This document shows, piece by piece, positions 7,070 to 25,137 of a stretch of DNA of 25,137 nt (position 1 is the stretch's first letter; each line of letters starts with the position of its first letter). The notes under the pieces were generated by a model. It searched no databases. It worked only from the letters and a program-made list of their open reading frames with translations, and was not told the DNA's origin. The position numbers were made by a program, and so were the translations under genes. The DNA comes from Saccoglossus kowalevskii. Its lineage: Eukaryota > Hemichordata > Enteropneusta > Harrimaniidae. The stretch lies in contig NW_003106095.1 of the NCBI RefSeq assembly GCF_000003605.2, forward strand, positions 432,305 through 457,441. The letters are read 5' to 3'.

Positions 7070-7133
7070 ATGGAGAAACGGAAAACATTTGTTGTGGTCC
7101 ACATGAGTGTGTTCGTTTTATATTTATTACGAG
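7070..7133 (+). CDS. Plus WSC-PAN gene, coding exon 1 (signal peptide)
   Basis: Sixty-four nt from the ATG: 21 codons plus one base, then donor GTAAAA at 7134. It encodes MEKRKTFVVVH and a hydrophobic core ending LYLLR. The paralogous exon has the same 64 nt and the same phase-1 break after an arginine, which supports both the start and the donor. Reading past the donor gives only a chance open frame to 7303. Confidence 0.85.
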
Positions 7134-10100
7134 GTAAAATAAGGTGTTATTTTAATCTTTTCCATCGTAGTTTGAGTGTCTGTGTGCATGACTGCATTGT
7201 TACGGTGTGTAGTTCAATGCAATTAAAGAATTATTGGCTGAAAAAGCGTCGATCGATCCGATTTACTAATATATACATTGTAATTGTACAGTCAAAATAC
7301 TAGCAATCCCTACTATTAAATGCAATTTAATACAATATATTGTAACGTAACATGATGTGATGTAATGTAACGTAATGTAAATGGATTTAATGTAATGCAA
7401 TGTGATGTAACGTAATGTAATGTAATGTAATATTGATATGTATGAGTCCAAAGCTTCCCTAACTGCTGTGACGACTCGGTGTGCATAGAAAGCAAGTTCT
7501 TAAATGTTGATAACCTGCTAGAGCCCCAGATAGAAATGCTCCGTCCGCTGATATATATATATATATCCAATGAAATTTACAATCATATACATTCATACAT
7601 CAGCCAATAACAAAATCCTGTCAATGTTTCGACCAACGCCATTTTGAATAATTGTAAACCTGCAGAGGAACAGTTCGTTGCTGAAGAAGTGTTAATTATA
7701 ATTAAACCAAACATTTAAACATTTTATTTATAGGATCGACCGCCATTAATAGATGCATGTACGAATATATTGGATGTTACAACGATAGTGCGAATAGGGC
7801 GCTGTCATGGTTTAGTTTAAAATCAGACAAGATGACTCCGGAGTATTGTATGGATATTTGCAGTGACTCAAGTGTGAACGCACCTTACGCTGGCGTCCAG
7901 TTTTCGCGGGAATGTTTCTGCGGGGTCGATTATGATAGTTATGGAAGTACATCGGAAAGTAATTGTAATATGCATTGCAGCGGCAACAACCAGTTATACT
8001 GTGGAGCGACCTGGAAGATGTCTGTGTACAAGATATGTAAGGCTGAACCACAGTCAGCTGGCGCAAGCGTGATTATAAAATAAATGCGATATTTATTATA
8101 CAGGGCCGCCATCTTGTAATGCTCCAAAAATTGTCATTCCAGCTCAACAGCCAATCCGGCGACGGCCTTACAGTTAGATGACAATTTCAGTTTCAAATAC
8201 CCCGGAAAAGTGTTCTATGTACTTCGTGTAATTAGGTGTTCGTATTTAAGGGATTTTTCCACACAAAAATGACGAATTCGGCCGAATTTTGTTATCGGTT
8301 GGCTTAATATTACCCCAACGGATCGTATTTCTGTGAAAGATTGGCATTTTTGTCCTGATTTGTAGGAATCTGAAAAACGCGTTTCACAACTTGCCTCTTA
8401 CTCAGTTTTATGCCGTATTCAAAATGGCAGCCCCCATACAGTAAATATCGCATTTATTCTATTATTTTTTGTGCGCCAGCTGACTGTGGGCTGAACGACA
8501 TATCCGTTGTTATTTTTGTTGTTGTTAAGTTTCATCGGGTTTGATTAAATATTGTGACGTTTTAGCACAATGCCAAGATAATGAGTTTTACTTATAGCTG
8601 TTAGTTTTCTGAAGTAATGAAAGACAAGCCATGGGGGTTACTTGCTATAATTCTTTCCTGCAAACTGTAGAGCAGATTGCCCGAAAGTTTCAATGTTGTT
8701 GTTAAGAAGGTAGGGTTATGTTAAGCAGTGAAGTTGTAAAACAGATGTGGTCCTGGCTGCCGACTAGCCAGTGTCGACAGATTGTGGAAATTAACTCTCA
8801 CATTACCCTCTGTTATCATGGTGTTGTATATACCTAAATCACTAAAATAATTGAAGTCACGCTTAAGATCGTGCTGTGATTTGAATTAAATTCGTACCTA
8901 TTTGACAAATAGTGAGAAAAGGGAATTCTAAGGTAGTTACTGTTAAAATAGAATGCATATACACCCGTCTATCAGACTTTAGTAGGGGATCAGTGGGTGC
9001 AATACTAGGAGAGAATGGAACACTGTTTGAAGGCCAAACGTAAGTCGCGTAGCTTTCTCGCTCCCGACCAGATTTCAGCGGCCATTTGCGTTTAAGGTCT
9101 GTTATTATGCAAATGACCTTCTTACAGGGAATGTATAGATCAATATTAATATTATACTATTCTACACGGATGAAAACTTCTCCCATCTGGGAAATTGGTG
9201 TAATAAACCGTCTAAATTACCCAAAATTGGAGTAGAAAATTGGAGAAGTTAGCTTTTTTTCTAAATTTATATCTTAGATCCTGGGACACCCTACAGCCGA
9301 CTGACATCACTGCTTCCCGTGTACGAAGAGTCGACGTTGTAAGTTTATTATGAATCGTACACTAACCACGTATACACACACGACACGATACACAGCTTAG
9401 GATGTCAGGAATATTAATCCCTTGAGCGCCAAAGTCTTTCCTGACATTTTGTGTAGGTGGAAGTTTTCTTCGCTGGTTCCCGGCGTCCCTTGCGAGTGAC
9501 AAGTAGGACGCACGTAACTAGTAACATGAGTAATCGACATATTGTTCCACTAGGCCGGGATTCCGGCACGCGGCTAAGTGATGTAATTTGAAAACATTCC
9601 AAGTTCCGTTCTGTGTAAACGTGTCTGGAAAACTACAATAACGTCGCGTCCATTATTCCGCCTGCTTGGACTTCATATTTGAGGGGGTTCTAACATTTCT
9701 CGCTATTTTGTGCTTTTTTGCCAAAGTGATAACAAAAAAAAAACGGTTTTATATTCGTGCAACTTTTGAGAGCGTGGGAAACCCCTGTTTTCTGTATGGA
9801 ACGACCGCAGCGAGGGTAAGCGCTGACGTCAGGTAACCAAGGGGAATAGAACAAGGAACGAGAATGTGATGGAACAATTATAATGCCGGATTCGTTACTA
9901 GTTACCGGCCTCTTGTGGCTTGGTGCGCCATGACACTTGAGGCGGAGGCGGGAACCAGCCAAGAAGTTTTCAAGCAATTAATGTTCACGAATAAAGGCAT
10001 ACCAAACAACCTATACATATTGCATCGTTAAGCAAAACAAAATGCATCGCTTGGTTATATTCAGACAATCTTGCCTTCACACTGGTAACACACACTCAAA

Positions 10101-10732
10101 CTGTAGACACAAATGTAACAATGATTTTATGAACGTTGCGTATTTTTACATAAATAATAAAGACGATAGTTGGATTTCAAAAACGTAACGTAATTCTAAT
10201 TTCATTTACCATACATAGATTTTACCACCATATTAAACGTTTTTCAGCTGGTCAGAGAAATACAAACTTGAATAGCTCGTGGGGTTTTAGTTTGTTTTCT
10301 GCTGTATTGTTTTCATACGAACATGTTGTAATTGAGATGCTCGCCAGCTGTCTACACAAGTATTGAATACTGGTGGTGCAGTGTCTTAGAACAGACAACT
10401 ATATAAAACACTTTTCTGTAGATAAACCACACATATTATGGAGTCAAACAGACAACATTTCACGGGGATAATTGTGTTTAAACCACCTTGACCGACTGAC
10501 GAACCGACTAGAAATAATACCTATAATGATTATTCGTTTGTTCGCTGTTGACAGGTTGTCGCTATCCGACAAGACAATCCACGGCTGTGCAATGGAGTGT
10601 TTACGCATTGACTGTCCGTCATTTTATTACAATGATGCCACGAACGGCTGCGTCGTTACAATGGTGAATTTTCTAGAAACACCGATCAAAGTATACATGA
10701 AGCAGGCCATCTTCTTCTCAAACTGCGAATGA
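7070..10732 (+). CDS. Secreted WSC-PAN domain protein, plus-strand copy (4 coding exons, 201 aa)
   Basis: The exons 7070-7133, 7734-8036, 9278-9338 and 10555-10732 join in frame to 606 nt, 201 residues plus TGA. Residues 1 to about 25 are a signal peptide (hydrophobic VVVHMSVFVLYLL). Residues 33-122 are a WSC domain (opening YIGCY) with eight cysteines at 36, 60, 64, 82, 84, 99, 103 and 111. Residues 124-142 are a short YSRLTSLLPVYEES linker or first PAN strand. Residues 143-201 are the rest of a PAN/apple domain (GCAMECL, DCPSFYYN, final cysteine 200). One NDS glycosylation sequon starts at 38. WSC and PAN are known carbohydrate- or protein-binding extracellular modules, so a secreted lectin-like role is inferred and the true ligand is unknown. 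It is convergent with a paralog at 13147-16367 that has the same exon lengths and phases. Intron 2 carries a MITE beside the donor. Confidence 0.88.
7341..7431. repeat. Degenerate (GTAAT)n microsatellite in intron 1
   Basis: About 18 five-base units of TGTAA/TGTGA/CGTAA type run through this part of the intron. The tyrosine- and threonine-rich reverse-strand open frames across it come from this repeat and are not genes. A short (AT)n tract follows at 7551-7566. Confidence 0.85.
7734..8036 (+). CDS. Plus WSC-PAN gene, coding exon 2 (WSC domain)
   Basis: The acceptor TTTATAG ends at 7733 and the donor GTAAGG starts at 8037; the exon is 303 nt, phase 1 at both ends. It carries the whole WSC domain, including CFCG and CSGNN-YCG motifs typical of the family. 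The frame stays open past the donor to a TAA at 8081-8083, so an unspliced transcript would give a WSC-only protein whose extra tail lies mostly in the adjoining MITE. The spliced form changes codon 123 from Cys to Tyr. Confidence 0.9.
8041..8496. mobile_element. MITE with 8-bp target duplication, just inside the intron-2 donor
   Basis: Direct repeats GGCTGAAC at 8041-8048 and 8489-8496 flank an element at 8049-8488 (440 bp). Its ends are inverted: CACAGTCAGCTGGCGCA on the left against TGCGCCAGCTGACTGTG on the right. Imperfect pairing runs about 75 bp inward, through AAATGCGATATTTA and the GCCGCCAT/ATGGCAGC blocks. An 8-bp duplication fits hAT, P or Merlin-type transposases; which one is unresolved. 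It has no coding capacity and must have been mobilised in trans. The left duplication begins 4 nt after the intron's GTAA, so the donor is intact. Confidence 0.92.
8985..9094 (-). repeat. Hairpin-bearing dispersed repeat, copy C (reverse orientation)
   Basis: On the minus strand it starts AAACGCAAATGGCCGCTGA, matching copy B at 15178 (AAACGCAAATGTCCGCTGA), and later has TGTTCCATTCTCTCC matching copy A. The stem-loop is degraded in this copy. It lies in intron 2 of the plus WSC-PAN gene and accounts for a false exon candidate at 8977-9040. Confidence 0.6.
9278..9338 (+). CDS. Plus WSC-PAN gene, coding exon 3 (61-nt micro-exon)
   Basis: It lies between acceptor TATCTTAG (ends 9277) and donor GTAAGT (starts 9339), phase 1 in and phase 2 out. 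It encodes PGTPYSRLTSLLPVYEEST plus split codons. I found it because the WSC and PAN exons do not join in phase directly, and because it matches the minus-strand exon at 14017-13957, which has the same length, phases and YSR-TSLLP-YEES core. It links the WSC domain to the PAN domain. Confidence 0.85.
9460..9972. mobile_element. Imperfect foldback element with arms of about 90-105 bp
   Basis: The left arm (9460-9550) pairs with the reverse complement of the right arm (9869-9972). Matching blocks are CTGGTTCCCG, GTAACTAGTAAC and ATTGTTCCA, in the same order in both arms with small indels between. No target duplication is identified, so the true ends are uncertain. It sits in intron 3 of the plus WSC-PAN gene. 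Open frames inside it show no known domain. Confidence 0.65.
10555..10732 (+). CDS. Plus WSC-PAN gene, coding exon 4 (PAN/apple domain, stop)
   Basis: The acceptor GTTGACAG ends at 10554; 178 nt follow to TGA at 10730-10732. The frame gives LSLSDKTIHGCAMECLR, DCPSFYYN, NGC and a C-terminal SNCE: the CAxxC, CxSfxYN and final-cysteine pattern of PAN/apple domains. The ATG at 10472 lies in the intron. The paralogous exon is also 178 nt with the same phase. Confidence 0.88.
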
Positions 10733-10964
10733 TTCAAGTTTTAAACGACATGATAAACTCCATTGCTTGAACCGATCAGATGCGATTCAGTTAAAAACAA
10801 CGTGATGATGCTTACCTGTAATTCAAACGCACTTGTGTTGATGACGTCACTTGCTGTAGTCGACAAACGACAAGGACATTGGACTCAACAACACTTGATG
10901 ATCTGATGGATTGAGTAGCTGCTAATGAAATGGTTTTGTAATCATGGGTTATCAGTACGAATCT

Positions 10965-11130
10965 CTGTTTTGAGGGGAATTCGAACGCACTCATTTTCTA
11001 GACATATAATTCTTCTGTGTACTGATTTGTGTTGCAATTTCAATGCTGTGTCCGCGCTCATTATCGTTAGAAATGTTACCTCAGCCCCTATAAGATTCGA
11101 ACTCACGACCCGTGCATAATGCAGTGTCAT
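10965..11130 (-). repeat. Degraded tRNA-derived SINE-like fragments
   Basis: On the minus strand, GGTCGTGAGTTCGAATC (near 11107-11091) and GTGCGTTCGAATTCCC (near 10990-10975) resemble the T-arm/B-box of tRNA-derived elements. The upstream A-box and a cloverleaf are not convincing, so these are not tRNA genes. Confidence 0.3.
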
Positions 11131-12904
11131 TTGTATAATAACTTGTTCATTGGTGTGTTGCTATGTTATATGGTAGTTAATATTCACAAATACGTGGCAG
11201 AACAAGTGATGAAAAAGATGCAGAAAATGGACTTCTGACACATGTTAATATAATAATATTTATTTAGAATTTCTTTAGAAATTGACGCAGCATTGAATAC
11301 CTTGCTACTGTGGACAATTGTTTATAGATACGCAAACATATCTTATTCAGAGAAACCACTGATGACATTTCTGAAAATAAATGACGTGGTAGCATAGATA
11401 TAACATGTTATTATCTATTCAGTGACAGGACCCATGGTTACTATTTACATAAATATAGTATTCTATGAAATATATAATATACAGCACTTCACCCAAAATA
11501 GAATATTTGAATTATATCCAATTATTATACTTCTGTCACAGCAATAAATTTCAGCGTGAGGTAAGTTTGCAGTATTGCATGGAGTATTTATATCAGACTT
11601 TATTAGGATACGCGAATTCCAAATATGGAACGTTTACGTGGTATTTCCAAGATGAAAGTTTATTGCGAAAAGGTTCAAGTGATTGTTAGCATTTTGCCTA
11701 GTTTGGGGCATGCCACACCAATCGGATGGACCGTGAAATGTATAATAATAACGTTATTACGAGGATATCGCAACGTATGCACTCAGGCAGTACACGGTCG
11801 CATCGACCTCATTTCTGTCTTCGTGCATGCAGGAACCTCATAACGCATCTTTTTCTGATTTTCCGCGCTAAAAAAAACAAACAATATGGTATAATGTACA
11901 CAGCACATAAATCGTTTAATTTTTACATTGTATTTCACAAATTTATAAACATTCTACTGCTTGCTTGATAAACATATTTGAAATGATTAAAGCGACGATA
12001 ACAATGCACGTCAGAAACACAAAGACTCGCGGATAGACGCTTGTGGGTGAACAACGACACGCTATGCTCAGATGACGTCATAAGTGATATTGTAATAAAC
12101 AGGAAATGTCGAATTACTTATATATATGGAATATCTTATTCGCAATGCATTGTGGTATGAGCAAAGCATGTAGTAATTAGTGGTAAACAGAAAATATATT
12201 TTTCACAATGCAATACATATTTCCATGTATGATATTTTCAAATATTATATTTATATGAGTACCGCTATGTTCCAATTTGTTATAAACTTAAACTAATATT
12301 GCATATTAACATACTCAACTTGAAAATACATATTATATTTTATTTTATCACATTCGAATCCTTGATTTAATCTCTGTTAGCTGTAGGCATCGAATCACAA
12401 TTGAAACAGTTTTGAGCTGGGCGAATTCATTCGCCGATGACTGGATTCATCTGTATTTTGACAGGTATTGGAATTAAGTTAGTTTCACGGCCACTGTGTA
12501 TTAGTGTCTTATATGACGCAAATCACCACTAATGTTAATATAAAAATACATTCAATCTACACATAAACCTCAAACAAACATCTTTCAGATATGGTATGCC
12601 TGTCTCAGTGATATTAATATACGCTGAAGAGTTGTCATGGCGATATACGCAACGCAATGTAACACCACTTTACCAAAATTCACAAAACACTGTGTTAATC
12701 TCAAGTGACCTCGGTATTTTCACATATTCGTATGCACATTCCAATTAACATGTTTCTTCTTAAACGATTTATATTGATGGGAAGAAAAAAACTTGTATTC
12801 CAAGAAGAAAATTAATTCTAAGGATCTTACCTATATTTTCATTTATATAGAAAAATTGATAATATTTTAAAATCAAACTAAAAATCAATCAAATTAAATG
12901 AACG

Positions 12905-12910
12905 TTTATT
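12905..12910 (-). terminator. Candidate poly(A) signal of the minus WSC-PAN gene
   Basis: TTTATT on the plus strand is AATAAA on the minus strand, about 240 nt after the stop codon at 13147. It is the nearest canonical signal I see, but the region is AT-rich. Confidence 0.35.
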
Positions 12911-13115
12911 TTTCAAACCTCTACAGTGATGCAAGTTTCATTGTTAATTTAAATAAGGTACAGTAGTAATGTGAAGTATTGTGGGTTAGAGGTCAAGTAC
13001 AAGCGTGATCACTCCAATGGTTTCGTCAACAAAAGATACAATCCGGACATGTGCACATAGCCGTTTCTTGCATAGTCCTTGCCACTGATAAATTGCAATA
13101 CTCAACGTTTTAACT

Positions 13116-13140
13116 CTCAGACTAGTAATACTAGTCTGAG
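13116..13140 (-). other. Perfect 25-nt palindrome after the minus-gene stop codon
   Basis: The arms CTCAGACTAGTA and TACTAGTCTGAG (12 bp each, perfect) are separated by one base. The palindrome ends 6 nt after the TGA of the minus WSC-PAN gene, so it would be a cruciform in DNA or a 3' UTR hairpin in RNA. No counterpart follows the plus-strand paralog. Confidence 0.8.
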
Positions 13141-13146
13141 TTTAAC

Positions 13147-13324
13147 TCAATCGCAGTCGGAAGAGAAAATGGCTTGTTTCAAGTACTGATTTGCTAATGG
13201 CTCTGAGAAATTCACTATTGTGATGAAGCAATCGTTCGTTGATCTATTGTAATAATATGATGGGCAGTCATTGCGTAAACACTCCATTGCACATCTGTAC
13301 AGTGTCTTGTCGGGTAGCGACAAT
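13147..13324 (-). CDS. Minus WSC-PAN gene, coding exon 4 (PAN/apple domain, stop)
   Basis: On the minus strand the acceptor CTTTCTCCAG ends at 13325; 178 nt follow to TGA at 13149-13147. It encodes LSLPDKTLYRCAMECLR, DCPSYYYN, NDC and a terminal SSDCD. The ATG further upstream at 13416 lies in the intron. Confidence 0.88.
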
Positions 13325-16300
13325 CTGGAGAAAGTGAAAATAAACAGTTTATCAGATTTATATTTGTTAAACAGTTTCCCAAGTACTGGGAATAGACCTT
13401 TTGATAATACTGTCACTTTCGACCGAACTGTTGTATCATGAAGGAATATTTTTTTTAGTAAAGTCGAACGTTTTTGCTATTGCTCCTGCGACTTTTCCTC
13501 CAAATAATACCCAAAATTCTTTATAATGGCACAGTTTGGCCGAACGAGACGCTACTCTCAAACGGTCCTATTTAAGCTTGAGTCATATTGGTATCGTTCA
13601 TATGTCCTATGGTTTACAATTATATTGCATCCACTTTAAAGCGGGGCTGTCGTCACCTGCGCATGCATCAGATGGCCATAGTGTGTCATTGTTTACTAAC
13701 AAGCGTCTACTCATGAGCCTTTGCGTTTTTAGCGTGTGTTGTTATCATCGCTTGGGACTCAATTCGGGCGCGTGCGCGGGCGACGACCACCCTGCTTTAA
13801 ATTTACCACAAACGATACATGTAAATGTAATTTTGTAAATAGTTTTCACTTTTTATCTTTATTGTCTTGTATTTTTTTAATGACCTTACTTGCTGTATAC
13901 TCCAAAGGGTCAAATTTGTCTTAGCGTCGTATTAGATCCATAATGACTCTACTCACACGCTTGATTCTTCATATTCTGGAAGAAGTGACGTCATTCGACT
14001 GTATCGTGGTGCCGGATCTTAAGTAAAAATAATGAGAAAAGAAATATCATAACAGTTTGTTTAAAATATGGTAGACGCTCGGCTCAGCTCTTGAGCCTTG
14101 ACGTTATTTCAAAGCGTCCGCTACAGAGCTGGTAATAACATGGAAAAGTCGCATTTTCATATATGTTTTCTAAACTTGCCTGAAATATTTACCATTATTT
14201 TTTTTTTCTTCAAACACTGTTGTACTGTAATATTTTACGTTAAAAACTGATTTATTAATGTAACTGTAACACTACGATAAAGACTTTCTGTTTTGACATT
14301 GTAAAATTCTTTCGTTTTTTTTGAGAAAAAAAAACTGAAAAAAAAATGATTTTAACAAAATAATTCAGAAATTTATATCAAAAATAATTTATAACGAAAT
14401 GTATTCCCTATGCACCCATAAATAATTTTCATAATAACCAATCACACATGAATATTACAGGAAAAAAGATAATTTGCTATACTAGTATTCTCCATACATG
14501 TTCCTTTTATTTGTCTTGAATTATGACTGAAAGAAGCTGAATACAATTACAAAATATGTAGTGTGTATGAACAATAACTTTAATAAATATGACTTTACTT
14601 GCTAAAAATACTGTATTTTTCTGCATAAAAACGAAAGAATTTCGCAATGTCGAAAACGGAAAGTCTTTATCGCGGTGTTTGAAACAATTATAAATCAACT
14701 TACATATTCTGTATATGGATAGACGCCAGCTGGATCCACAGTAGATATCGTTGTTGCCGCTACAAGGCATGTTGCATTCAGTTTCTGGTCTCTTACCATA
14801 ATAGTCATAATCAATTCCACAGAAACACTGTACGGAAAACTGAACTCCCGCATAAGGAGCGTTGATACTTTGGGCACTGCAAATATCCATGCAGTGCTCG
14901 GGGGTCATCTGATCTGACTCTTTGTGTTGCCATGACAACGCCCTTGCTTCTTGGTCCTTGTAGCATCCCACATATTCGTACATACACCTATCAATGGCGG
15001 TTAATGCTGCTCAAAAAAAACAACAACAGAAAACTGGATTGAGGCTTGTAAACAAATGGAAATAGTGTCATATTGTGCTGTATATGATGTCAATTCTGTC
15101 ATGTGCGACACTTGAAATGTAAGAAATCGAGCTAACATTTCGGTGTCGTGTTGCCTGACGTCATAAGTAATGAATCTCAAACGCAAATGTCCGCTGAGTT
15201 CTCGTTGAGAGCGAGAGAACCACGTGACTCGTTTCGGCCAATTGTTCACTCCGTTTCATCTGATCTTTGTAACCATTGCCTTTTTGGTCAGTAGACATGA
15301 TGGCGGCGGGGGAGAATTGAACCTTATTTGATGGCGGCAAAAAACCAGTGTGGTATCTTTCTTGTTTCACTCAAATCCCCGGTTAACGCACATTGAATCT
15401 TGACATAAATAGAATAGGATATATTCGGGGCTTGTTCAGTCTTTACTTCATTGTCTATAATACATGCTTGCATTCATAATATTTTCGTGATTTGTTTTCC
15501 ACAAAAAACGCTATTAAAAAAAACGTTTGTAAACAAACAAATGACGTATTTACGCTCGTTTTACACGACGCGGTGCGACGACAGTGGTGCTTTAATATTC
15601 ACGTAGGCGCGTTTCAAATTGAGTTTACTACAAGCAACTACAGAGTATTCCAGATGCCGAGTTGTGAAAGGACTATTCAGTTATTTTAGCCCAACTAGCT
15701 ACGGAAATGTCGGTTTTGTTAACGTACTTGGGAATTTAACATACCGCCAATTATATATAACCGGAACCAAAGTAATTATTACTATAATATTAATAGCCAT
15801 TTATAGTGTTGATTAAAATATTATTTTCATTTTTTTCCACCCGTTTCAGATTTTAAAGTGTTGTAATCACAGCGCGTCGTTTTCGGCATGGGTCGCATGT
15901 GACGTATACACGAACTTAGAGCGCGCACTGCTTGCCGACGACAAAGTGAAAACTATTTTTTTTTAATTAAAAGGAATTGCAAAAGCGGAATTAAATGAAG
16001 TTCAATTGTTGACCCTATTCCGATATTGAATGTCATTCTTAGAACACAGGCCATGGGTAGACATGATAAACAACTACAGATGTATTTCTATTCTGAGATA
16101 ATGATATTCATCATTTCACTTTGTGCAATGTACAATACAGAGAAGAGACGCGAAATATCCCGGAACTAAAACGAATAACGCAAAGACACAAACACGTGCT
16201 ATAGTACGTGTAATCATCCGACAAATCTGTGACAAAAGAAGCCTTCCAGCACATACACTACTCTCTATTTAAAACGATAAAATAATATAGTCGGTTGACT

Positions 16301-16367
16301 TACCGCGAATGAAATGTACAATAAACACACACACATGTACTACAGCTGAGGAGTTCGGTTTCACCAT
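13147..16367 (-). CDS. Secreted WSC-PAN domain protein, minus-strand copy (4 coding exons, 201 aa)
   Basis: The exons 16367-16304, 15006-14704, 14017-13957 and 13324-13147 join to 606 nt, 201 residues plus TGA. Architecture matches the plus copy residue for residue without gaps. A signal peptide (AVVHVCVFIVHFI core) precedes a WSC domain with cysteines 36, 60, 64, 82, 84, 99, 103 and 111. A YSRMTSLLPEYEES linker follows, then a PAN/apple domain with cysteines 154, 158, 163, 175 and 200. By hand count the two mature proteins are about 64% identical. A sequon NRS starts at 169, while the plus copy's sequon at 38 is absent. It is presumably a secreted binding protein; ligand unknown. The introns (1297, 686 and 632 bp) differ in size and content from the paralog's, so the duplication is not very recent. 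Confidence 0.88.
13635..13801. mobile_element. Short MITE with TTTAAAGC ends
   Basis: The left end TTTAAAGCGGGGCTGTCGTC pairs with the reverse complement of the right end, TTTAAAGCAGGGTGGTCGTC. Similarity continues through a GCGCAYGC block, about 35 bp in all. It lies in intron 3 of the minus WSC-PAN gene. The outermost TAA may be a 3-bp target duplication (PIF/Harbinger-like), which is inference. It is related in sequence to the element at 24616-24895. Confidence 0.65.
13957..14017 (-). CDS. Minus WSC-PAN gene, coding exon 3 (61-nt micro-exon)
   Basis: On the minus strand it lies between acceptor TTTACTTAAG (ends 14018) and donor GTGAGT (starts 13956). It encodes PAPRYSRMTSLLPEYEESS with split codons at both ends, phase 1 in and phase 2 out, giving in-frame joins to exons 2 and 4. 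It is the counterpart of 9278-9338. Confidence 0.85.
14268..14679. mobile_element. Inverted-repeat element beside the WSC-exon donor of the minus gene
   Basis: The ends AACACTACGATAAAGAC and (reverse complement) AACACCGCGATAAAGAC pair. Imperfect pairing extends about 65 bp through TTTCTGTTTTGACATTG and AATTCTTTCGTTTTT. No clear target duplication was found. It fills most of intron 2 and starts 23 nt beyond the donor at 14703. It is not related by eye to the MITE at the matching place in the plus gene. Confidence 0.8.
14704..15006 (-). CDS. Minus WSC-PAN gene, coding exon 2 (WSC domain)
   Basis: The acceptor TTTTTTTTGAGCAG ends at 15007 and the donor GTAAGT starts at 14703; 303 nt, phase 1 at both ends, as in the paralog. 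It contains CMDIC, CFCG and CSGNN-YCG motifs and all eight WSC cysteines. The frame runs on past the donor to 14507 through the adjoining repeat element; that extension is not conserved and is probably intron. Confidence 0.9.
15178..15300 (+). repeat. Hairpin-bearing dispersed repeat, copy B
   Basis: It aligns with copies A (4335-4470) and C (8985-9094, reverse). It has AAACGCAAATGTCCGCTGAG, a stem TTCTCG...CGAGAGAA, AACCACGTGACTCGT and a TGTTCACTCCG block. It lies in intron 1 of the minus WSC-PAN gene. Confidence 0.6.
16304..16367 (-). CDS. Minus WSC-PAN gene, coding exon 1 (signal peptide)
   Basis: Too short to stand out as an open frame: 64 nt from the ATG to donor GTAAGT (intron from 16303). 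It encodes MVKPNSSAVVHVCVFIVHF and IR plus one base, phase 1, matching the plus-gene exon in length and in the VVH-VF pattern. A strong acceptor CTTCCTTCATTGCAG ends at 16370, 2 nt before the ATG, so an upstream non-coding exon exists. Confidence 0.85.
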
Positions 16368-16954: not shown

Positions 16955-18895
16955 GTAAGCCCCTCCAATGATAGTTTCTGATATTGTAATCTGACTTTTG
17001 TATTTGCGCCTCATCTTTTTTTTTTTTGTAAGTCTAATTATGATAGTTTGTGTATTTTCCCTTTCTGACCCCGCGCTCGAAATATTAATGGCAGCACTTC
17101 AATTTGTTGCATACCAGTGAGCTCAGTTACAAGATTTGGTTACCACACACTTAATACACACAGTTTAAGCCTGCTGAAATATCAAATAAATCAGTCAATT
17201 TCAAATCAGTATTCATTGTAACACTGAGATAAGGTATTATATTTGTCCTAGTTTCACACAATGCCGTAAACTAGCGTTCAATATGACGTCTTGTTGTCCG
17301 CACGTACTACACGAAATTTACATTCAGTGTTATGAGTTTATTACATTAATGTGTTTAGGGTTATAGGCTATAGCTTTTGTTAATTTCCTGTTTACGAAAA
17401 ATCAGTTTAAAACGCTAATGATGCATAACAGGACTATTATTAGCATTATACCTTAATCGTTTTAAATATCAGGGTGAAATATTACATGTATAAGAACATT
17501 TATTATTTTGAACAATAAACCTGAAATGAAAAACCTATATTTAATTGTTAATTACAAAATTCTTTATATATAAGCATAACTATGAAATTCACATGAAACC
17601 CAACCAAATGTAAGGTTGCCAATTTAACTCATAAGGAATTGATTATTGCACGTGTTCAATCATTGAATGATCATATAAATGAACGTTTATGGCCATGTCA
17701 ATTTAATAATAAAAAAACGTTCGGAAAGCATTCGCATTTTGTCATGATCAACTGCTCTCTGTTAAAAAAAAGATACAGTTTGACATACTGTCATCGCGGT
17801 AGATCCAGGATCCAATATGATTTGGTTTTCTGGAATTGTAATACACCCTAAAACAGACTAACGTACGCGTTTCTGGTTTGTGCTGACTGTATGAATGCAC
17901 AATCATTCTATTACAAGCACCTTATTGTTGCTAGGAAGCGAAAATAAAACATGTTTGTTAGTTATAGCCTATCGATCATTATATTATTACTATAAAGGAT
18001 TGGACATTATGGCTGCAGGCACTGTAGTAAATTACAATCCATAGTTGAACTTGTACATGTGGCTTTTATGGTTGACCGCGCTAAGGGGAGTTTTTGCGCC
18101 ACTGTTTGTTTTGGGTAGGGGTTATTAAGTCATTTTACCATTTTAACAAATCGTTCAGAGCGTAATATGGCTAATAATCAACTAATATGTACGAAAAGAT
18201 GATTGTTTTTAATTTACATGCTCGACTCCACATTCAATTTCTTTTAATTCAACGATCCGTTTCAGTTAGTGCACCAATGCGATAGACTCAGACACTTAGC
18301 GGAATACAATCTTTCGAAGTACTATGACATCGACATATTTTCTTCATAACAGACTATGTTATCAAATATATATTGCAAGAAACAATAAGACGACGCGCTT
18401 ACCATTCGTTGCTGGTGTATACAATATTCGCTCGACTGACGTATCTCAGTGTTTAGTATGTATGAGACAAACTCGTGCACAATAAAACAAATGTAGCTAT
18501 GCTCCCTTCGTAATATATGTCTATATACTGTAATGAAGCAGGAGAAATTAAGGAGTTCTCGTGGAATGCGTTAATGTATGAGATGTGAGGTATTTTTAAG
18601 ATCCACATTCCATAGCGTGACTAAATCAATTAACACAATATGCAAGTGGTCGTACAAAGCTTAAAAGATGTAATGCAAACTAGCAAGAACAAGATCGGAA
18701 CATCTATCGACACAGCCTAGGGTGGATTTCATTTTTGCCAGCCGTCATTGACAGCCAAGATTTACTTTAGACATTCAGGAAGTTCACATAAAAAACATTT
18801 TTATTAATTCATTGAATTAGTATTGATCAGTAACGTTCCTGTAAAAATATTACACACAAGAGTTATTTACATTGATTTACTAACAACTCGTACGA

Positions 18896-19040
<145 letters not shown>

Positions 19041-20530: not shown

Positions 20531-22556
20531 GCAGTCCGTAAAGAAATAATTTGAGTGACATTAATACGCTTAAATTCAGTGATTTCAGTGACTAACTCAT
20601 TACACACTCCTACAAAAGATATGAAAGACGTTAAAGACACATAAAGCTAAAGGCATTGGTATATCATGAACTCAACTCAACACGATAACACAACACAAGT
20701 AAATACTACCCCAATGGAAGCCAGTCAAAGCAATTGGGGGATACGAACAGCTTCAATTCACATGTACACAACCAACAGATACAAGATTAATTGCTGCTCT
20801 TCAAATGGGTCCTTTCTTTTGTATTGATCCTCTGAGAATTGCTAATTCCACCTTTTTAACTCTTGCCCCCCAAATAATATATCGCCCCCTAAAGAATGTA
20901 TTGAACCAAAAAATAATTAATATTCATGAGCACTGTACGTCATGAATAAATTAGCATAGTTTAAATATTGATATTGTTATTGAAAGTTCAGTGTGAGATG
21001 ATGGGAAAAACTAACTCAGACAAGGTGAAAGGAGTGAACGAATAATCAAAACATGTGTACAGCAAATGTATTTTTTTTTCATTTTAATAGGTGGAAGAAG
21101 GTCAATTATAATGTGTAATTGCCACAATCTTAAAATACAAACTGTTTGCACTGATTTCAACAATAAGCAGAGACATTTAGAAAAAAAATGGTGATTCACA
21201 ATCAAGTGTGGAGAAGTACTTGCACCATTCACAATGTCAATAGTTCATGTCAAAACCGCGTCCACCCTATTTACGATAATCTCATGCACATTTTTATATG
21301 TTCGGAAAATAAAACGATGTCCAATGAACAGGTTCATGACTTGACGGTCACATTTTTGGCTTTCTAGAAGCTACTTGTTTCCAATCATTCAAATAGATGT
21401 GGATTATCACTCAGTGTTGCAATATTGAGTAATAACAGAACAGAATACGAGCGAACCATGGTACGTTGGTATTGATATTTAGTCCTTTGCTGCAGATAGT
21501 AATTCAACATTGCTGCAACTTTGTCTTGAGTAATTCATTGTATTTTCACTCAATTTCATCGCGCTAGTTTATACTGGCTATACTGGCATGCACAAAACAA
21601 TTACAGCATATTGCCGAGATGTTAAATTAATTGGTTAAATAATAGATGGTTCACACAAGATCTACCTGTATTGATTTTTATCAGATTGCTAGGGTATGTA
21701 TTACATGTATAAAAACTCCATAAAGTCTGTAGAAATCTGCATTATTTTCAGACCCTCCTATTTATCAACTATATAATGCATGCTAAATTACCAAATAAGT
21801 CGTAATTCTCACATAATTTTGTAATCCTATTTTGTTATATAAGTGAAAATTGTTTTTGTGAATGCACACACAACGCAATAAAAATTCCACCACTGTTCAC
21901 ACCGTTTTGACACTTTTTTAGATAAATATGCCCGTCTGTATTCTCGAGGCGGGCATCCGGACATTTTCACTGCCTGGTAACCATCACAATAAAAACAAAG
22001 ACCAAACACGCTCAGAAAACGGTACTTTGGGACAGTTGCTGAGACTCTCATAAACAGTGTTATAAGATTACCCAAAAATGTGCAACTTATATAAAATTGG
22101 TTGCTCAGAATTGCTTTAAAAGTGAATTTTTGCTGTTTTTTCACATTTAGCTCCTTGACCGGCGTTCAACAGCAGCTCGCACAGACCCCATAGAAATACA
22201 CGGTACAGTGGTACGTGTCTTAGCAACGTAGACCGTTCTGTGACGCAGCTCCGCTCCGCTCCCAAGAATTGTAGAATTCCCTTGTGTAACCTTTTTTACC
22301 AACTGTATAGCATAGTACACCAAGAGAAAAACCTGGATAATTAGTGGAATGGAAAACGTTTAAATAGTATGTGGGGATACGATGTATTAGTTGGTTGAGT
22401 ATTTTTTGTTGTTGCCAATATTAGTTTCAACAACAGATTGTGACCCGTGGTTCCCTCCCGACTTGGGACTATGGCATAACGATAATGCACGCCGTATGAG
22501 ACTACTATGTCTGTACAAACCGTGAAAGACCAAATTAGTGTTGGCGTTGCGTCATA

Positions 22557-24393: not shown

Positions 24394-25137
24394 ACAAGGA
24401 CCGTTCACGTGAAAGTATACTGAAGAGTCATCACGTTTGTCTCCTAGCCTGATACCTGAAATTGTTATATGTAAGATTTGTCAGTGAATTATAAAGTTTA
24501 CGTGAACATGCTAGTAGGCTTTGAAGCCACTACAACACCGGACACCTACGCCGAACATCGATGCACAATACTGACCATGGGCTCATTAAAGCGTATCATA
24601 GACAGTGCGTCCAACTTAAAGGGCGGTAGTCGTCGCGCTGCGCATGTGTGACATTTGTGTTGATAAACATTGACTTTCCCTCAATCCAATGCGTATGAGG
24701 TTTGACCTGGACGTGACTTGCACTGATTACCGCCGGTGACTCAATACATTCCAATCACCTGAAAATACCTAATTAAAGCTTGGTAACGTCTCAGTTTATA
24801 TTCGTTGATCTGTGCAACAGTCAAAGTTGCCATCTGTGTTTATACGAGACCCATATATCTCGTGCATGCGTGGCGCGACGGTTACCGCCCTCTAATATTT
24901 GTCAATTATTCGAAGAACACGTAAATATGAGTGGGGGTGTGAGTACATTTTTATAGACAATAAAATTAACCGGACATCAATACAATTTTCGGTGTTGTAG
25001 AAAATGTGCCGAGATTTACCGCCAGAGCAGAAAATTCCAATTTAAGTAGAGATGCAGTTTATTTGTGAATTTCAATCAAAAATAGTTTTTTTCGTTTTTT
25101 ATATAATTTTTATCTAAAAACATTCTGTGAAAATTTG
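24394..25137. other. Right-hand flank, no gene recognised
   Basis: The minus-strand frame of the transporter copy extends open upstream from 24393 to 24453, next to an acceptor-like TTTCAG (24461-24456). An upstream exon is conceivable but not seen. The MITE at 24616-24895 takes up much of the rest. Nothing is recognised from 24900 to the end. Confidence 0.5.
24616..24895. mobile_element. MITE with TTARAGGGCGGTA ends
   Basis: The left end TTAAAGGGCGGTAGTCGTCG pairs with the reverse complement of the right end, TTAGAGGGCGGTAACCGTCG, followed by CGCATG in both arms. About 30 bp of inverted terminus bound a 280-bp element. TAA at both outer edges may be a target duplication (PIF/Harbinger-like, inferred). 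It shares the TTAAAG/GTCGTC core with the element at 13635-13801. Confidence 0.7.

Follow-up and report, generated by a model that had tools for sequence, protein, structure and literature searches.

The 25,137-nt stretch of Saccoglossus kowalevskii DNA analysed here (contig NW_003106095.1, positions 432,305 to 457,441 of the forward strand; hereafter the window, in which all positions are counted unless a locus handle is given) carries two predicted genes that point at each other, and the locus raises the question of what kind of protein such a pair encodes and how it was put together. We call the gene on the plus strand A and the gene on the minus strand B. The reading that we favour, and hold to be fairly probable, is that A and B are paralogous, conserved genes for predicted secreted proteins of ∼176 mature residues and 20 kDa with two domains, a WSC domain followed by a PAN-like domain, and that the product is an exon-shuffled soluble binding protein.

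The convergent genes have four coding exons each (Table 1), and the lengths of these exons (64, 303, 61 and 178 nt) and the intron phases (1, 1 and 2) are equal in A and B. GT...AG is present at 12 of 12 intron ends, and both genes give a single open frame of 201 residues that closes with a TGA stop at the same place, leaving 2,414 bp between the two stop codons. When the A region was compared with the B region by blastn, matches at E ≤ 0.001 were confined to the four exons. The 61-nt exons of A and B are real, as 13 of their 19 residues are identical, whereas first-order Markov simulation of both introns, repeated 1,000 times, gave at most 7 of 19 for the best open AG-61 nt-GT pair. The first-pass annotation, an earlier note made from the letters of this DNA, had described a convergent four-exon pair across a 2.4-kb spacer with common exon lengths and phases and had warned that the 61-nt exons are easily missed; its coordinates proved right to the base, the lengths and phases are indeed shared, and the short exons are genuine. 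A form that skips exon 3 was considered and rejected, with a frame shift and early stops in both genes. The ATG is preceded, at a distance of 7 nt in A and 2 nt in B, by an acceptor-like AG that follows a T-rich stretch, so that an intron in the 5′ untranslated region, and with it a non-coding first exon, is likely in both genes and the exact gene start is uncertain. At the other end, an AATAAA is found in the spacer 236 nt 3′ of the B stop. A tblastn search for further copies within the window gave none beyond the eight exons (best other match, E 0.24).

Table 1. Positions of the exons of genes A and B, of the spacer between them and of the inverted-repeat elements in their second introns
Feature	Position	Strand	Description
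Gene A exon 1	7070..7133	+	Start codon followed by a signal-like hydrophobic stretch; phase-1 end
Gene A exon 2	7734..8036	+	WSC domain within one symmetric phase 1-1 exon
Gene A exon 3	9278..9338	+	61 nt; beginning of the C-terminal PAN-like domain
Gene A exon 4	10555..10732	+	Remainder of the PAN-like domain; TGA stop
Gene B exon 1	16304..16367	-	Start codon and signal-like hydrophobic segment
Gene B exon 2	14704..15006	-	WSC domain, phase 1-1
Gene B exon 3	13957..14017	-	61 nt; beginning of the PAN-like domain
Gene B exon 4	13147..13324	-	Remainder of the PAN-like domain; TGA stop
Spacer between the A and B stop codons	10733..13146	none	
Inverted-repeat element, intron 2 of A	8041-8496 (440-bp element 8049-8488)		17-bp identical inverted ends CACAGTCAGCTGGCGCA; 8-bp target duplication GGCTGAAC
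Second inverted-repeat element, intron 2 of B	14261-14679		Lies 24 nt into the intron

A and B are old, intact and conserved duplicates under purifying selection. The two proteins agree at 124 of 201 residues over their whole length and at 114 of 176 from residue 26, that is, in the mature part, and it is the latter count that fits the ∼64% identity given by the first-pass annotation; its statement that 14 mature cysteines align without gaps is also true (14 of 14 at the same positions), and B has one extra cysteine inside the signal segment. Differences at codon positions 1, 2 and 3 number 50, 36 and 90 (third-position excess, p 8e-7). The ratio of nonsynonymous to synonymous divergence (dN/dS), which the same annotation had put forward as a check, is 0.24 in the mature part (bootstrap 0.14-0.36; 1,999 usable of 2,000 draws) and indicates purifying selection. 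Moreover, the proportion of nonsynonymous differences (pN) is at most 0.27 in every 30-codon window and no stretch of high dN is found between A and B. The synonymous distance between A and B is ∼1.0, and the duplication was therefore not recent. As a separate observation, the synonymous difference is 0.26 at codons 142-171 (10556-10671 and 13208-13323), compared with 0.44-0.71 in the other windows, those covering most of it excepted, and this dip may reflect partial conversion of one inverted gene copy by the other, or chance.

Judged by sequence, the presence of a WSC domain in both proteins is certain. Pfam WSC (PF01822) matches at E 9e-19 (A) and 4e-19 (B), with 67.9 and 69.0 bits against a cut-off of 27.8, and positions 1-82 (A) and 1-81 (B) of the 82 positions of the profile are covered. 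The eight WSC cysteines of A and B are C36, C60, C64, C82, C84, C99, C103 and C111. The nearest solved WSC relative by sequence is Kremen1 (E 2.5e-8, residues 32-126), and all eight cysteines correspond, in order and at near-equal spacing, to the Kremen1 cysteines named in an excerpt of PMC5014086. That excerpt gives the Kremen1 disulfides as C122-C186, C147-C167, C151-C169 and C190-C198 and calls the Kremen1 WSC domain homologous to PAN modules, and by analogy A and B would form C36-C99, C60-C82, C64-C84 and C103-C111. The WSC domain of yeast Wsc1, according to an excerpt of PMC9024836, has a PAN/apple fold with four disulfides. Kremen1, however, has a Kringle domain, a CUB domain and a membrane anchor according to the excerpt of PMC5014086, whereas A and B have neither Kringle nor CUB, carry a PAN-like domain instead and show one more cysteine ahead of the WSC core; the Kringle-WSC-CUB order of the Kremen family is absent from A and B, in which Pfam profiles find WSC and PAN_1 only. 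Wsc1 shares the WSC domain with A and B but is a fungal membrane sensor without a second PAN module.

We call the C-terminal domain PAN-like, because it falls short of a formal Pfam assignment. The Pfam PAN_1 profile (PF00024), whose cut-off is 21.4 bits, gives 14.7 (A) and 15.2 (B) bits with the whole proteins (E 0.027 and 0.019) and 17.9 (A) and 18.4 (B) bits with the C-terminal 79 residues (E 0.0028 and 0.0019), and for these 79 residues PAN_1 is the sole Pfam family matched in A and the top one in B. None of 10 cysteine-preserving shuffles matched PAN_1 (one gave an unrelated match at E 0.2), compared with E ≤ 0.003 for A and B, which points to a similarity beyond cysteine spacing. The first-pass annotation had named a WSC plus single PAN architecture and had proposed HMMER against Pfam to verify it; the WSC half of that statement passes, and the PAN half fails at 14.7 and 15.2 bits and stands as PAN-like. 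Like the PAN/apple modules of HGF, plasminogen, factor XI and Toxoplasma MIC4, the domain has a C-x3-C-x4-C-x11-C core and, as modelled, the helix-strand order; the model of the PAN exon, built on a shallow alignment of two rows, shows helix-strand-strand-strand with a mean predicted local distance difference test score (pLDDT) of 61. It differs from those modules in falling below the Pfam cut-off, in having no first cysteine inside the domain and in being split by a phase-2 intron after ∼20 residues. The first-to-last cysteine pairing of the apple subtype is not found, the part encoded by exon 3 having no cysteine and C200 having no partner within the domain. An internal duplication of one half of the protein into the other was also considered; it is unsupported by sequence, as blastp detects no similarity between the WSC half and the C-terminal half (E 2.3).

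The two domains were followed through the rest of the genome by searches of the 572-Mb S. kowalevskii assembly, which has the window at the end of its contig C93 and for which all match lists are lower bounds. The WSC exon of A has at least 19 genome matches at E ≤ 0.001, A and B included, and Pfam WSC has at least 43 on 20 contigs, 41 of them besides A and B. Pfam PAN_1 has at least 52 matches on 33 contigs, and A and B are absent from these, hence the profile search overlooks PAN domains that are so divergent. Searched with the C-terminal PAN exon of A, the genome gave A and B alone (3 candidates scored), no contig is common to the 52 PAN_1 and the 43 WSC matches, and within the reach of these searches WSC and PAN appear to meet only in A and B. 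The word ‘family’ used for the pair by the first-pass annotation thus stands for a paralogous pair, with two members only within the same reach. Beyond this genome, 27 pattern matches among viral contigs and 6 among prokaryote genomes gave no confirmed relative, and plasmids gave no relatives, which is what one would expect of an animal gene. In the open-access literature, as represented by titles, abstract starts and term counts, we found no paper on a compact animal WSC plus PAN protein; single entries concern a trypsin-WSC protein in Nematostella (excerpt of PMC6767649) and a WSC domain-containing protein named in one table line on mussel gill transcripts (PMC4581086).

The matches of the WSC-exon search other than A and B are 17 of the 41 others recovered by Pfam WSC. 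In their neighbourhoods (9.9 kb each), tblastn with the PAN-exon peptide found nothing better than E 0.67, and with the exon-3 peptide nothing at E ≤ 2. In a WSC tree of 19 rows, A and B form a clade with support of 100/99 and group with the three C4174 copies, C1757 and C2923 at 93/96, just short of the support mark of the tool. The WSC exons of these five relatives are entered in phase 1, as in A and B, and in four of the 17 (the three C4174 copies and C1757) the 3′ boundary also has the offset and phase seen in A and B. The five relatives differ from A and B in having VWD (loci L023 and L024; in L023 in the same open frame as WSC) or EGF and CUB (L020) nearby, in having no extra cysteine and, in four cases, in the donor of the following intron. 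This donor, G|GCAAGT, appears to be of the GC type after the WSC exons at L022 2240, L022 4889, L023 8202 and L024 5028, where A and B have GT, and may represent a conserved GC-AG intron in the three C4174 copies and C1757.

The cysteines suggest how the two halves of the protein may be held together. A PAN core uses four cysteines in two disulfides, as in HGF, and in apple domains the last cysteine pairs with the first cysteine inside the domain. Outside the eight WSC cysteines, A and B have C29 in front and C154, C158, C163, C175 and C200 in the PAN-like part. Because the WSC domain would take eight cysteines and the PAN core four, C29 and C200, at the two mature ends, are left over, and the simplest reading of this count would be an interdomain clamp C29-C200. 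In both A and B the WSC exon encodes a further cysteine ahead of the first WSC cysteine, and in 0 of the 17 relatives it does so (exon starts computed, one doubtful; a second, partial WSC stretch in L035 excluded), so the extra cysteine goes with the PAN-like partner.

The reading that we favour runs as follows. Exon shuffling would have brought a symmetric phase 1-1 WSC exon together with a signal exon and a PAN-like unit, and the ancestral gene would then, long ago, have been duplicated in inverted orientation. Given the PAN/apple fold of solved WSC domains, we propose a tandem of two PAN-fold modules with seven disulfides, of which four would lie in the WSC domain and two in the PAN core, whereas the last, C29-C200, would clamp both ends. 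The product has a hydrophobic N-terminus and is probably secreted, and it would be released outside the cell as a soluble protein whose partner, a glycan or glycoprotein, would be met in mucus, matrix or body fluid; we infer such extracellular binding to be its likeliest action. The secreted make suggested by the first-pass annotation is supported in so far as the two-domain protein looks secreted, cleavage of the signal being putative. Its ‘recognition or matrix’ role stays conjectural; dN/dS and the lack of a high-dN stretch give no sign of recognition in an arms race. From one pair compared, the low dN/dS rather favours a conserved partner over an arms race. A stronger version is tentative at best, namely that WSC and a divergent PAN were joined only once in the lineage, that the new cysteine before WSC replaces the missing PAN partner and closes a ring through C29-C200, and that the resulting clamped twin-apple secreted binding unit was then duplicated in inverted orientation.

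Some observations speak against this picture. Neither AATAAA nor ATTAAA occurs within 568 nt 3′ of the A stop. Neither A nor B reaches the PAN_1 cut-off of 21.4 bits in any search, and in a profile search of the PDB the top match was an antibody chain (E 0.2), followed by the apple-domain protein MIC4 (E 0.35), both short of significance. Foldseek with the PAN-exon model gave, in the best 50 of 51 matches, no PAN protein and none below E 1.9, and the WSC-exon model, from an equally shallow alignment of two rows, has a pLDDT of 40 and is useless. As to the clamp, C29-C200 comes from counting, C29 could alternatively bridge two molecules as a dimer bond, and among the computed exon starts the acceptor for L035 reads through a stop.

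Among other explanations, the one that survives best overlaps with the binding protein that we prefer. A and B are acidic (pI, the isoelectric point, is 4.9 in A and 4.7 in B), disulfide-rich and conserved, and an insect foam protein shows a weak WSC-like structural match according to an excerpt of PMC12911473, all of which would suit a structural protein of the mucus, cuticle, shell or egg coat that does not act by binding or recognition. However, A and B have single globular domains and no repeats or low complexity of the sort typical of many matrix proteins, and no animal matrix protein of such make came up in literature searches on the WSC domain in shell matrix and in marine adhesives. 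We therefore regard a structural role as possible but the lesser option. A type II membrane protein, in which the hydrophobic segment is kept as an anchor and the two domains are displayed on the cell surface, is less likely still. Its hydrophobic stretch begins at about residue 6 after basic residues, Kyte-Doolittle windows peak at 2.6, and the cleavage site is no more than moderately convincing by eye; against this, the N-terminal segment is of limited length, has a small residue at its end, ahead of the first cysteine, and has its own phase-1 exon, and many signal exons end in phase 1.

It is also conceivable that the genes are longer than modelled, or separate, with the WSC exon part of a bigger mosaic protein and the C-terminal exons those of another gene. 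WSC exons elsewhere in the genome do lie near VWD, EGF, CUB or TSP1 exons, and the acceptor-like AGs just upstream of both ATGs would allow extra 5′ exons. However, the distances from AG to ATG, 7 and 2 nt, are unequal and out of frame with each other, which speaks against a common upstream coding exon, and both copies have four exons of equal length and phase, one 201-codon frame and the TGA at the same place, with a dN/dS of 0.24 across the joined frame, so that we consider such arrangements very unlikely. Diversifying selection on a fast-evolving pair of immune-recognition genes, which would fit binding-type domains, a gene duplication and N-glycosylation motifs that differ (at 38 in A; at 169 and 181 in B), is similarly improbable in view of a dN/dS well below 1 and pN ≤ 0.27 in each window (in the one pair compared, with selection at particular sites possible) and of only two copies found in the genome.

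The second introns of both genes contain inverted-repeat elements (Table 1), and different elements adjoin the same intron-2 donor in A and B. The element at 8049-8488 begins 12 nt into intron 2 of A and its target duplication leaves the donor GTAAGG intact; from its inverted ends and 8-bp duplication we take it to be a hAT-like miniature inverted-repeat transposable element. A relative of this element (88% over 268 nt) starts ∼70 nt downstream of a C4174 WSC exon (L022 1903-2168), and a copy of the element at 14261-14679 (81% over 438 nt) is found at L023 7021-7444, also near a C4174 WSC exon. Intron 3 of B holds a dispersed repeat (13630-13812) with copies 76-88% alike in L020, L023, L025, L034, L035 and L036. 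Elsewhere in the window, dispersed repeats are present at 21955-22258 (copies in L020 and L026) and 24616-24891 (copies in L031 and L035), and tandem arrays at 815-981 (22-bp unit, 7.6 copies) and 18895-19038 (pure ATTT, 36 copies). An open frame at 1228-1509 has a tyrosine kinase match (PF07714, E 1e-10) that covers the C-terminal part of the domain, and a minus-strand open frame at 23377-23871 matches an EamA-type transporter domain (PF00892, E 3e-12). Scans of the window gave 0 Rfam families and 0 tRNA genes.

The pairing of WSC with a PAN-like domain is modestly unusual, and we regard A and B as a modest variant of known extracellular proteins. They show how easily genes of this kind escape annotation when some exons are as short as 61 and 64 nt. 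If correctly read, the pair would be a clean case of modular exon shuffling, in which a WSC exon whose relatives lie near VWD, EGF or CUB exons is joined here to a PAN-like unit; moreover, as the PAN fold is that of solved WSC domains, both halves of the product may be distant versions of one fold, arranged in tandem and linked by a disulfide between the domains.

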